Positions 1 to 33,181 of a DNA stretch of 64,000 bases are shown here, piece by piece. The notes beneath the pieces were generated by a model. That model did no database searches and was not told the origin of the DNA. It saw only the letters and a list, made by a program, of their open reading frames with translations. The number at the start of each line of letters is the position of its first letter. The first letter of the stretch is position 1. This stretch comes from Lactobacillus sp. LL6. GTDB taxonomy: Bacteria; Bacillota; Bacilli; Lactobacillales; Lactobacillaceae. The stretch spans positions 1 to 64,000 of the forward strand of contig NZ_VLLR01000001.1 of assembly GCF_007570935.1 (NCBI RefSeq), given 5' to 3'. A program made the position numbers and the translations under genes.

Positions 1-1365
1 TTGTTCGACAAAGATGATTTTTGGCAACATTTTAATAACGAAATGCGTGTCCGTTTTAATGAAGTTGCCTATAACGCTTGGTTCAAAAATACCAAGCCTA
101 TCTCTTATGATAAAAGTAGCCATGAACTTAAAATCTCAGTTCAAAATCCAGTAGCTAAAGGTTATTGGGAAAAAAACTTATCTTCTCAACTAATACAATC
201 TGCTTATGGATACTCAGGAATTGAGATTTTACCTACTTTTGAAATTGAAGGAAATACAAGTCCAGAACGACTAGTTACACCTGACTCGACACCAACACAT
301 CAAAACAGAATATCACCTTCTGAAATCGACGAATTTTCCCAAAATTTCAAATTAAACGATAAATATACTTTTGAAAATTTTGTCCAAGGTGAAGGTAATA
401 AACTAGCTGCTGGAGCAGCTTTAGCTGTTGCAGATAATCCTGGTAGTTTCTATAATCCATTATTTATTTTTGGTGGAGTTGGCCTTGGTAAAACCCACCT
501 AATGCAAGCTATTGGGCATCAAATGCTTGCAGAAAAGCCGAATGCTAAAATTGTTTACATTCAGAGTGAAACATTCGTTAATGACTTTATTAACTCTATT
601 AAAAATAAAACACAGGATCAATTTAGAGAAAAATATCGAACCTGTGATTTATTGTTAGTAGATGATATTCAATTCTTTGCAAAAAAGGAAGGAATCCAAG
701 AAGAGTTTTTCCATACTTTTGAAACTCTATATAATGATCAAAAACAAATTGTTATGACAAGTGATCGTTTGCCCACAGAGATTCCTGATTTATCTGAACG
801 ATTAGTTTCACGCTTTACTTGGGGACTTCAAGTAGAAATAACACCACCAGACTTAGAAACACGAATTGCCATTCTAAGAAAAAAAGCCGAGTCAGAAGGT
901 TTAAGTGTCAATGAAAGTACTCTTGACTATATCGCTTCACAAATCGATACTAATATTCGTGAATTAGAAGGCGCATTAGTAAAGGTTCAAGCTCATGCAA
1001 CAATAGAAAAAGAGGATATTAATGTTCCTTTAGCTCAAGAAGCGTTGACAGATTTAAAGCTTGTGCAAAAAACTCGTGGATTGCAAATTCCCAAGATTCA
1101 AGAAGTGGTCGCTAATTATTTCCAAACTTCAACTGCAGAATTAAAAGGAAAAAAACGAGTTCGCCAAATAGTGATTCCAAGACAAATTGCAATGTATTTG
1201 GCTCGTGAATTAACTGACTCCAGCTTACCTAAGATTGGTCAAGCATTTGGAGGAAAAGATCATACAACAGTTATGCACGCCTGTGAAAAAATAAAACAGC
1301 AAATAAAAACTGATGCTGAAATAAAAAATGCTGTTTTTGATTTAAAACAAATTCTTGACCATTAA
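1..1365 (+). CDS. dnaA: Chromosomal replication initiator protein DnaA
   Basis: DnaA is the AAA+ ATPase that binds DnaA boxes and melts oriC. The 454-residue protein has full family length. Domain I is N-terminal and followed by a variable linker (about residues 85-115). The Walker A motif GGVGLGKTH lies near residue 158 and Walker B LLLVDDIQFF near 218. The C-terminal DNA-binding signature GGKDHTTVMHA lies near 417. The start is TTG at base 1 of the window, so the upstream promoter and any upstream DnaA boxes cannot be seen. dnaN follows after the origin spacer. The identification is secure. Confidence 0.98.
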   Translation: MFDKDDFWQHFNNEMRVRFNEVAYNAWFKNTKPISYDKSSHELKISVQNPVAKGYWEKNLSSQLIQSAYGYSGIEILPTFEIEGNTSPERLVTPDSTPTHQNRISPSEIDEFSQNFKLNDKYTFENFVQGEGNKLAAGAALAVADNPGSFYNPLFIFGGVGLGKTHLMQAIGHQMLAEKPNAKIVYIQSETFVNDFINSIKNKTQDQFREKYRTCDLLLVDDIQFFAKKEGIQEEFFHTFETLYNDQKQIVMTSDRLPTEIPDLSERLVSRFTWGLQVEITPPDLETRIAILRKKAESEGLSVNESTLDYIASQIDTNIRELEGALVKVQAHATIEKEDINVPLAQEALTDLKLVQKTRGLQIPKIQEVVANYFQTSTAELKGKKRVRQIVIPRQIAMYLARELTDSSLPKIGQAFGGKDHTTVMHACEKIKQQIKTDAEIKNAVFDLKQILDH

Positions 1366-17986: not shown

Positions 17987-18059
17987 GCTGACTTAGCTCA
18001 GTTGGCAGAGCACGTCACTAGTAATGATGAGGTCGGAGGTTCGAATCCTCTAGTCAGCA
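17987..18059 (+). tRNA. tRNA-Thr, anticodon AGT (copy 1)
   Basis: A 73-base cloverleaf. The acceptor GCTGACT pairs with AGTCAGC. The D-stem is GCTC/GAGC, the anticodon stem CGTCA/TGATG with loop CTAGTAA, and the T-arm GGAGG-TTCGAAT-CCTCT. The anticodon AGT (A34) would read ACU and, if deaminated to inosine, ACC and ACA. CCA is not encoded. Its 3' end is the apparent attachment site of the following island. Confidence 0.95.
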
Positions 18060-26925: not shown

Positions 26926-26998
26926 GCTGACTTAGCTCAGTTGGCAGAGCACGTCACTAGTAATGATGAGGTCGGAGGTTCGAATCCTCTAGTCAGCA
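26926..26998 (+). tRNA. tRNA-Thr, anticodon AGT (copy 2)
   Basis: Identical over all 73 bases to the gene at 17987. It is followed directly by its own terminator. The two copies delimit the accessory region. Confidence 0.95.
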
Positions 26999-31582: not shown

Positions 31583-32911
31583 TTATTTAAGACGTTTTCC
31601 GTCTAGCTTTTTAACTAAGTAAAGAACAGGAAGTCCTACAATAACAATTCCAATAAAGAGAATTACGCCAGCTGGGTCATTTATTAATTCACTAACTAAA
31701 ACAAAAATTCCACCAGCAATTGCAATTATTGGAACAAATGGATAAAGAGGAGTTGAAAAAGGGCGCTTAGTATTTTTCTTTCTTAAAATAAAAATTCCAA
31801 AAAATGCTAGAACATAGAAGCAATAAATTGTAAATACACAAAGGTCGGATAAACGATCTGGATCAAAAAATAGCATCATGATAGTAGCTAATACAACAAT
31901 AAAAAGTGTAGCAGTGATTGGAGATTTTCCTTTTGGCGTTACATATGAAAGAAAACGTGAAAATGGTAAATCTCCCCGCTTAGCCATTGCATAAATAATA
32001 CGTGGGAAAGTGATGATTTTTCCATTTAATGTACCCATCATTGAAACAATAATTCCAATAGAAAGTAGTTTTCCGCCGATATGACCAAAAGCCTTAGTAG
32101 CTAAGTAAGAAGTAGCATTTTCTCCAAGTGCATGAAGAGTAGCTGCAGGAATAAAACGTAAAATTCCAATGGTAATTAAGGTATAAATAATTAAAACGGT
32201 GCTAATACCAACAATGATGGCTTTAGGTAAAAGTTTTTGAGGATTTTTCATTTCACCACCAAGGTTAGCAATTAAAATCCAACCATCATACCCAAATAAA
32301 GTGGCTAGTACTGCAACACCAAAGCCACCAGTTGAACGATTAACTTCAGAGAGTGTTTGACCAAAGGCATCTTGGTGTCCCCAAATAATTCCAAAGATAA
32401 TGATAGCGGCAATTGGAATCATCTTTCCAATAGTAGTAATAACTGAAAAAGCAGCTCCGACTTTATTTTCAAAAAAGTTTAGTCCACCAATAAATAAAAT
32501 TGTAATTAATGCAAGAGGCACTCGCCATTTAGCATCTAGTCCAAAAAGATTAGTCATCATAATACTCATAAAACCAGCAACTGATGCAATAATAGCAGGT
32601 CCATAGATAATAACTTGCATCCATCCCGCTAAAAATCCGGGAAGACGACCATAAAGGTTTTCAATATAAACATAAAGTCCACCAGTATATGGCATTTGAG
32701 CACCGATTTCAGCAATTGTTAATCCAGCAGCTAGTGTAATTAATCCACCAAATACCCATGCGACAATTGCCATGGTAGAAGAGCCAGCATTATCTAAAAT
32801 AGAAGCTTGTTTGAAAAAAATTCCTGAACCTATAATGGTTCCAATAACTATTGAAATAGCACTTCCAAAGCCTAAAGTACGTTTTAAGTCATTGTTTTGC
32901 TGCTTATCCAT
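31583..32911 (-). CDS. steT: Amino-acid permease, SteT-like serine/threonine exchanger
   Basis: An APC-superfamily (LAT-type) membrane transporter with 12 predicted helices. The 442 residues closely follow the pattern I remember for Bacillus subtilis SteT: VIGTIIGSGIFFK near the N-terminus, IIYGPAIIASV, ATLFGYDGWILIANLGGEMK and LGENATSYLATKAFG. SteT exchanges serine and threonine. The start is ATG 32911 with AGGAGG at 32918-32923; a longer frame to 32941 would run through the terminator. The leader upstream holds a nine-serine-codon peptide and an attenuator, which independently supports serine as substrate. Confidence 0.88.
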   Translation of the reverse strand: MDKQQNNDLKRTLGFGSAISIVIGTIIGSGIFFKQASILDNAGSSTMAIVAWVFGGLITLAAGLTIAEIGAQMPYTGGLYVYIENLYGRLPGFLAGWMQVIIYGPAIIASVAGFMSIMMTNLFGLDAKWRVPLALITILFIGGLNFFENKVGAAFSVITTIGKMIPIAAIIIFGIIWGHQDAFGQTLSEVNRSTGGFGVAVLATLFGYDGWILIANLGGEMKNPQKLLPKAIIVGISTVLIIYTLITIGILRFIPAATLHALGENATSYLATKAFGHIGGKLLSIGIIVSMMGTLNGKIITFPRIIYAMAKRGDLPFSRFLSYVTPKGKSPITATLFIVVLATIMMLFFDPDRLSDLCVFTIYCFYVLAFFGIFILRKKNTKRPFSTPLYPFVPIIAIAGGIFVLVSELINDPAGVILFIGIVIVGLPVLYLVKKLDGKRLK

Positions 32912-32923
32912 AAAAAACCTCCT

Positions 32924-32969
32924 AAAAAAAGCCGAACCCACAAAATCTGTTGATTAAGTGAATTCGGCT
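32924..32969 (-). terminator. Attenuator terminator in the steT leader
   Basis: Arms AGCCGAATTCAC and GTGGGTTCGGCT pair over 12 positions (two G-U pairs) and are followed by T7. It ends 6 bases before the steT ribosome binding site, so transcription must pass it to reach the gene. Its 5' arm (32954-32967) can instead pair with 32993-33006, an anti-terminator with 13 of 14 positions paired. Confidence 0.85.
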
Positions 32970-32988
32970 TAAGCGTGTATTATTTTTG

Positions 32989-33052
32989 CATACCAAAATC
33001 ACTCAAGTTAACTAGAACTTGAGGAGGAACTTGATGAAAATTGCATGGTATG
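32989..33052 (-). promoter_or_regulatory. Mutually exclusive leader hairpins upstream of steT
   Basis: CATACC inside the leader peptide (33047-33052) pairs with GGTATG (32989-32994). CTCAAGTT over the serine codons (33016-33023) pairs with AACTTGAG (33002-33009). Both 3' partners overlap 32993-33006, the strand that can pair with the terminator 5' arm. A ribosome stalled on the serine codons would free this strand and allow anti-termination. A ribosome at the stop codon would cover it. This is inferred from base pairing. Confidence 0.75.
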
Positions 33053-33064
33053 TAAAATAAACAT
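33008..33064 (-). CDS. Serine-rich leader peptide of steT
   Basis: An 18-codon frame MFILHTMQFSSSSSSSSS followed by TAA. The nine consecutive Ser codons use both codon boxes (TCA, TCA, AGT, TCC, TCC, TCA, AGT, TCT, AGT). AAGGAG at 33071-33076 lies 6 bases before the ATG. It ends inside the regulatory hairpin that precedes the terminator. Mixed codon use argues against a simple repeat expansion and for selection for serine. The peptide itself probably has no function beyond its translation. Confidence 0.85.
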   Translation of the reverse strand: MFILHTMQFSSSSSSSSS

Positions 33065-33181
33065 AACTGTCTCCTTGTAAAATTATTTTTAATTAGAATA
33101 TCATTAATTAATTTTTCGTGCAAGAAAAAATTATTACACTTATAATGTTATGTAAGTATTTCCTAGGAAATGAGGTTTTTT

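Follow-up and report, generated by a model that had tools for sequence, protein, structure and literature searches.

A putative serine-responsive leader-peptide attenuator of an amino acid permease gene in Lactobacillus sp. LL6 and a related threonine-coding class in Lactobacillaceae

The window, that is, the whole 64,000-nucleotide stretch of Lactobacillus sp. LL6 DNA analysed here, carries on its minus strand a gene for an APC-superfamily permease that is preceded by a compact leader region (Table 1). All 22 matches of the permease in an NCBIfam scan were below the cut-off, the best of them being to the L-type amino acid transporter (LAT) family. The nearest solved structures are 9h76 (E 2.6e-89) and 6f2g (E 2.7e-89), labelled only as a 'putative amino acid/polyamine transport protein', which we take to be the alanine-serine-cysteine exchanger BasC, and serine is therefore a likely substrate of the permease. 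BasC is described as a bacterial alanine-serine-cysteine exchanger (PMC6472337). The term 'SteT-like', which a preliminary description of the locus had applied to the permease, is reasonable but loose in view of the LAT match and the two structures.

Table 1 Features of the leader region and the regulated gene in the window.
Feature	Position	Strand	Basis or remark
-35 element TTGCAC	33118..33123	-	read directly; consensus match only
-10 element TATTCT, TGA just 5' (extended -10), 17-base spacer	33095..33100	-	read directly
Leader-peptide Shine-Dalgarno AAGGAG	33071..33076	-	read directly
Leader ORF, 18 codons + TAA, peptide MFILHTMQFSSSSSSSSS	33008..33064	-	read directly; related ORFs in relatives
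Outer helix P0, 5' arm CATACC	33047..33052	-	pairs with GGTATG 32989-32994; recurrent, individually weak
Run of nine Ser codons, both TCN and AGY, putative regulatory codons	33011..33037	-	Ser conserved beyond the paired strand despite TCN/AGY changes
Strand 1 (CTCAAGTT), within the Ser codons, P1 5' arm	33016..33023	-	covarying helix; 33023-33016 pairs with AACTTGAG 33009-33002
Strand 2 (AACTTGAGTGATTTTGGTATG)	32989..33009	-	partners: strand 1 in P1, strand 3 in the antiterminator, CATACC in P0
Strand 3 (CCGAATTCACTTAA), terminator 5' arm	32954..32967	-	alternative partner 33006-32993, 13 of 14 pairs
Intrinsic terminator hairpin (-21.7 kcal/mol) and T-run	32924..32969	-	hairpin 32969-32930, T-run to 32924
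Permease Shine-Dalgarno AGGAGG	32918..32923	-	read directly; directly after the T-run
APC-superfamily permease, LAT type, 442 aa, regulated gene	31583..32911	-	NCBIfam scan, solved-structure comparison

The leader peptide consists of MFILHTMQF followed by nine serines, encoded in the order TCA TCA AGT TCC TCC TCA AGT TCT AGT, and a stop codon. The preliminary description had noted this frame with its ribosome binding site, the nine Ser codons of both families and the TAA, the pairing of the antiterminator at 13 of 14 positions and the intrinsic terminator just before the permease ribosome binding site, all of which are borne out by the sequence. Folding of the 169-nt leader region gives -43.7 kcal/mol compared with -28.5 kcal/mol for shuffled sequences (z = -3.9, none of 200 shuffles as stable), and the duplex of strands 2 and 3 gives -18.0 compared with -8.1 kcal/mol for shuffled sequences (p = 0.005). 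Two hairpins had likewise been named, of which P1 is well supported, whereas the outer helix P0 is weaker, with p = 0.085 in the window. Searching the window against Rfam at the gathering score revealed no leader family and no T-box at this leader. Two tRNA genes, at 17987-18059 and 26926-26998, are the only gathering-level matches in the window.

Taken together, the elements very probably constitute a ribosome-mediated transcription attenuator that senses the charging of Ser-tRNA and controls the LAT-type (BasC/SteT-like) permease. The frame, the codons, the helices, the covariation of P1 and the terminator, the position of the stop codon and the gene that follows are established by the sequence and its comparison with relatives, and from them we infer stalling of the ribosome and read-through at low Ser-tRNA. 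With ample Ser-tRNA, the ribosome would cross the Ser run to the stop codon at strand 2 and cover that strand, upon which strand 3 would join the terminator and transcription would end before the permease. With scarce Ser-tRNA, the ribosome would stall on the Ser codons and cover strand 1, P1 would be blocked, and strand 2 would then capture strand 3 in the antiterminator, allowing RNA polymerase to read into the permease gene. When the leader is not translated, P1 would tend to form, with termination as the default outcome.

Related leaders are found before orthologous permeases. A protein search in 75 genomes of the genus gave 25 Lactobacillus orthologues with a readable upstream region (that of a 26th close orthologue, in genome G013, is cut by a contig end), and 22 of these have a Ser-rich leader ORF with a Shine-Dalgarno sequence, as do 17 of the 22 Limosilactobacillus upstreams; a leader ORF with its own Shine-Dalgarno sequence is thus present in 39 of the 47 upstreams together, the start codon and the Shine-Dalgarno sequence being part of the search filter. 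The three Lactobacillus genes without a leader are first copies of tandem pairs, the second copy of which has one, while five Limosilactobacillus orthologues have no Ser leader. In the tandem arrangements (L014, L015 and L019 with L038-L040), leader and terminator lie between both genes and belong to the second copy. At loci of named species the leader is present in 34 of 40, including L. reuteri, L. vaginalis, L. mucosae, L. jensenii and L. hamsteri, and absent from those of L. gorillae, L. pontis, L. timonensis, L. kribbianus, Ca. L. intestinigallinarum and Ligilactobacillus saerimneri. No convincing Ser leader was found in any of 59 upstreams from other genera (protein identity 68% or less). 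Genus g19, the leaders of which were found by RNA covariance models, is an exception among the other genera. Three ORFs in other genera that passed a loose filter (L080, L087 and L120) were judged to be chance occurrences.

For comparison, a set of 36 leaders with distinct DNA was used (19 from Lactobacillus and 17 from Limosilactobacillus), from which L012, L013 and L019 were left out as the same or nearly the same as L011 and L015. Although their DNA is on average 54% identical in pairwise comparison (computed on 37 rows including one duplicate), the leaders retain a reading frame rich in Ser, P1, the pairing of strands 2 and 3 and the terminator. The Ser runs of L018 and L026 are thin, with four Ser per ten codons. 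A TATTCT-like -10 element with TGn is located 5' of 35 of the 36 leaders.

The serine residues appear to be conserved as codons. First, in the 36 leaders 239 of the 763 in-frame codons are Ser codons, compared with 26 and 65 among 727 when the frame is shifted, a count that is by itself partly circular because the leaders were picked for Ser. Stronger evidence comes from three codons immediately preceding strand 1, which are unpaired in P1 and encode Ser in 29, 28 and 31 of 32 sequences compared with means of 20.9, 26.3 and 26.5 in column shuffles, and the observed values were reached in 0, 1.3% and 0.05% of 2000 shuffles, respectively. Finally, two of these three codons keep Ser by alternating between TCN and AGY. 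Most of the leader Ser codons are TCN (210 of 239, counted within the leaders alone), the codon type that is reported to slow ribosomes in serine-starved B. subtilis (PMC3862929).

The RNA helices are likewise conserved. Covariation was counted for P1 and the terminator in an alignment of 32 leaders (A3), which leaves out the near-identical L027, L037, L049 and L057, and the antiterminator was judged by duplex energy only. P1 and the terminator together have 98 cells changed on both sides, compared with 32.8 in shuffled alignments (none of 500 as high), with double changes at 15 of the 20 pairs, and sliding the partner by one column lowers the covariation score from 0.463 to 0.138 or 0.177. 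In this alignment 94.9% of the P1 cells are paired, and P1 reaches p<=0.05 in 34 of the 36 leaders. The mean energy of the duplex between strands 2 and 3 is -19.5 compared with -11.3 kcal/mol, with p<=0.05 in 29 of the 36 leaders and values above this in seven; in L047, where the anchor pattern has no match, the stop codon was used to locate strand 2. A shifted register of the antiterminator, GGCTGAGTGATT with AATCATTTGGC, is found in many leaders of Limosilactobacillus, so that strands 1, 2 and 3 have changed together. An intrinsic terminator lies between the leader ORF and the gene in all 36 leaders (those of L024 and L025 were placed by hand), and the stop codon is found from -11 to +8 nt from the GAG of strand 2 in all 36. 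The alignment that the preliminary description had proposed as a check thus gave both the conserved Ser runs and the covarying stems, and, together with the stop codon at strand 2, these support its reading of the leader as an attenuator of the trp/his type.

Covarying helices and the CTCA of strand 1, invariant in 36 of 36 leaders, would also be expected if RNA structure alone were selected, for example in a protein- or ligand-bound terminator switch, with the Ser run as a by-product of a CTCA/TCC-rich strand. This explanation is, however, highly improbable, as Ser is maintained in frame by changes between TCN and AGY in codons beyond the paired strand, the frame bias is 239 against 26 and 65, and Thr codons are found on a similar scaffold in front of a different permease, as described below; the recurring start codon and Shine-Dalgarno sequence are a weak argument against it because both belonged to the search filter.

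The proposed attenuation was examined in a simple model with ribosomes placed on the leaders. In the mean of the 36 leaders, the modelled antiterminator is 0.53 with the ribosome stalled on the core Ser codons, 0.02 with the ribosome at the stop codon, a value that is partly built in because the ribosome footprint masks strand 2, and 0.14 in the untranslated state, where P1 is 0.60. The corresponding antiterminator values in the window are 0.69, 0.16 and 0.16, and the stalled value exceeds that at the stop codon in 35 of the 36 leaders. The stalled antiterminator is poorly modelled in L054 (0.01), L021 (0.05), L037 (0.10), L024 (0.14) and L027 (0.17), and the antiterminator is already 0.50 or more in the untranslated state in L008, L016, L023, L026, L053 and L065. 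An earlier folding measure, in which every pairing of the terminator arm with upstream sequence was scored, gave mixed signals (0.53 untranslated, 0.40 at the stop, 0.72 at the best stall) and was replaced by this strand-specific one. When the full-length leader is folded at equilibrium, the terminator prevails in almost all states, and the switch would therefore have to work co-transcriptionally. As for the outer helix P0, it recurs with changed letters, such as GCGTC/GACG in L055, and reaches p<=0.05 in 13 of the 36 leaders. In many Limosilactobacillus leaders, GTACAC just 5' of the leader Shine-Dalgarno sequence is complementary to GTGTAC after strand 2; an outer helix would therefore enclose the leader ribosome binding site, a pairing that is weak in individual leaders.

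A second class of leaders was found with covariance models. Model R1, built from the 32 leaders, recovered in the 75 genomes of the genus the same 22 leaders and one orphan at E<=3e-7, the next match being at 0.035. An orphan Ser leader, L242 (Lactobacillus genome G029, VYTIYTNFLELTSSSSYTYWLE, with a GTG start), has no permease directly 3' and is perhaps a remnant after gene loss. When applied to 397 genomes of the family, R1 also matched a second locus, the leaders of which have a CTCAACC/GGTTGAG P1 and a terminator, encode mostly Thr-rich peptides, for example MQIYNDSIIHHLTSTSTTTTITVVE, and stand before an AAT-type permease. For the two of these permeases that were scanned, the best NCBIfam match is the bifunctional threonine/serine transporter ThrP, at 557 and 564 bits against a cut-off of 850, and the remaining permeases were assigned to the ThrP class by a shared sequence motif. 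A second model, R2, matched 62 of the 397 genomes at E<=0.01, a count that includes Ser leaders and spurious matches; 55 model matches were read, comprising a group of 20 (17 leaders, one orphan and two spurious) and a group of 35 (27 leaders and eight spurious). Weak matches without a leader ORF (L244, L245, L302, L303, L305 and L308-L312) were rejected. Among 285 sampled genomes of the order, the only matches outside the family were L323, L325 and L326 (E 0.002-0.003), which are without a Ser- or Thr-rich leader, and the models gave no Thr leader match in the window's own genome.

The codons of these leaders differ with the permease. Thr codons account for 71 of 284 codons in frame compared with 15 and 6 of 272 in the shifted frames of 12 ThrP-class leaders, with a preference for ACC and ACA (43 and 21 of the 71); eight ACC codons are reported in the E. 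coli thr leader (PMC1183508). Of the 34 distinct ThrP-class peptides, which come from seven genera, 32 have more Thr than Ser (with a tie in L306 and the reverse in L298), and all 34 distinct peptides of the LAT class in Lactobacillus and Limosilactobacillus have more Ser than Thr, counts that are no independent trials because the peptides are related by descent; L229, a near copy of L227, was left out of these counts and of alignment A4. In 11 Limosilactobacillus genomes with both leaders, a Ser leader stands at the LAT permease and a Thr/Ser leader at the ThrP-like permease, the latter with more Thr than Ser in ten and a tie in one. Of the eight distinct LAT-class leaders in genus g19, assigned to the class by reading and with two of the proteins scanned, four are Ser-rich, two Thr-rich and two equal. 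At two g19 loci, G434:C45 and G330:C17, convergent genes for a LAT-type and a ThrP-like permease are near neighbours and both have a leader, and G446:C1 and G343:C1 show the same arrangement by match positions only; such neighbours are a possible route for the transfer of leaders between the families.

In 12 modelled Thr-class leaders, the antiterminator is 0.60 when stalled, 0.02 at the stop and 0.11 untranslated, with the stalled value above that at the stop in 11 and poor stalled values in L236 (0.02) and L235 (0.12); the model also counted three of the four g19 LAT leaders of alignment A4, with L232 left out. A 16-leader alignment has 14 double changes compared with 6.1 shuffled (none of 500 as high), and most covariation measures lie above the shuffles. 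The Thr class is nevertheless less well supported than the Ser class, because 131 of 500 shuffles equal that alignment in further pair types and only one of five codons is above chance in the codon-shuffle test. R1 matches Thr leaders down to 2e-7 and R2 matches Ser leaders down to 5e-9, which suggests a common origin of the two. The leader scaffold looks to be shared, with codons that follow the transporter, and the best reading of the sister class is that it senses Thr-tRNA by the same attenuation logic. Leaders that keep the stems and lack the Ser run had been named beforehand as evidence against serine sensing; they occur mainly in this sister class before another permease, with Thr codons in place of Ser, and the codon-sensing reading is thereby strengthened.

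Control at the level of translation, in which the CCUCC of the Ser codons would mask the permease Shine-Dalgarno sequence, would agree with the complementarity of TCCTCC in the Ser run to AGGAGG at 32918-32923, but is even less probable than selection on structure alone, given the terminator that lies between the two in 36 of 36 leaders and the ACCACCACCTCA carried by several Thr-class leaders, without CCTCC there. Least probable of all is nascent-peptide arrest similar to the TnaC and Erm leaders, where exit-tunnel contacts of the Ser-rich peptide would stall the ribosome in response to a small molecule: a short ORF with a Shine-Dalgarno sequence and structured RNA would generally look alike, but the N-terminal residues vary widely, no fixed arrest motif is seen by eye, and what the leader peptides have in common are Ser (or Thr) codons in variable numbers. 

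Extended to both classes, the attenuator would be a modular and recodable device of Lactobacillaceae. On the whole it seems probable that a single RNA scaffold, in which the codons over and before strand 1 alone set the sensed amino acid, has been re-specified between Ser and Thr by single first-base changes (for example TCC to ACC) and has passed between permeases that belong to two different APC subfamilies, and that the mixed Ser/Thr forms sense both amino acids.

The mechanism of attenuation is already known, while the sensing of serine, the Lactobacillaceae lineage and the recodable scaffold appear to be new. In enteric attenuators the leader stop codon lies at strand 2. The enteric trp, his, leu and thr leaders are alike in that clustered regulatory codons of a leader peptide are combined with helices that exclude one another and with an intrinsic terminator before the gene (PMC9413887), whereas here serine would be sensed, the target is a permease, the host belongs to Lactobacillaceae, and no Rfam leader is matched at the gathering score. 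Leader-peptide attenuators are also described in Firmicutes for histidine (PMC2965389, PMC9413887), where, unlike the Ser leader, they control histidine genes, and the histidine genes of Lactobacillales are reported to largely use T-boxes (PMC9413887). The attenuator peptide of S. aureus is similarly a Firmicute leader peptide with regulatory codons, but is leucine-rich, concerns branched-chain amino acid synthesis and belongs to another bacterial family (PMC5794164). The TCN codons of B. subtilis sinR are akin to the Ser leader in that serine starvation is read as slow Ser codons, yet they act inside a coding gene without a dedicated RNA switch and are contrasted with attenuation in PMC3862929. 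A Cys leader is described in Rhodobacterales (PMC8632094). Among the open-access literature matches listed, His and Leu leaders are found in Firmicutes, with no Ser leader and none in lactobacilli.

T-box control of the window permease was considered and rejected, as the window has no T-box at the gathering score. T-box leaders also sense tRNA charging and control amino-acid genes, but they recognise the tRNA itself by direct binding and need no leader peptide, in contrast to the leader described here, which has a leader peptide and no match to RF00230 at the gathering score. Among 20 loci of relatives scanned for a T-box, only L090 has one, which points away from the permease (49-282, minus strand, 112 bits). 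The window genome has 18 RF00230 matches elsewhere, eight of them over the cut-off; those 5' of serS and thrS, at 57.7 and 48.5 bits, respectively, fall short of the gathering score of 93. From these matches we infer that the same genome may read Ser-tRNA by a T-box for the synthetase and by the ribosome for the permease.

If true, the leader would be the first serine-specific leader-peptide attenuator, and its relatives the first such family in Lactobacillaceae, among the open-access matches listed; control of amino-acid genes in this group is commonly attributed to T-boxes. The occurrence of Ser and Thr codons on a common scaffold would amount to a natural codon-swap experiment on codon identity as the attenuator signal. 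Leaders of this kind would be ready reporter parts for serine or threonine, and they may hint at the substrates of poorly annotated permeases in lactobacilli.
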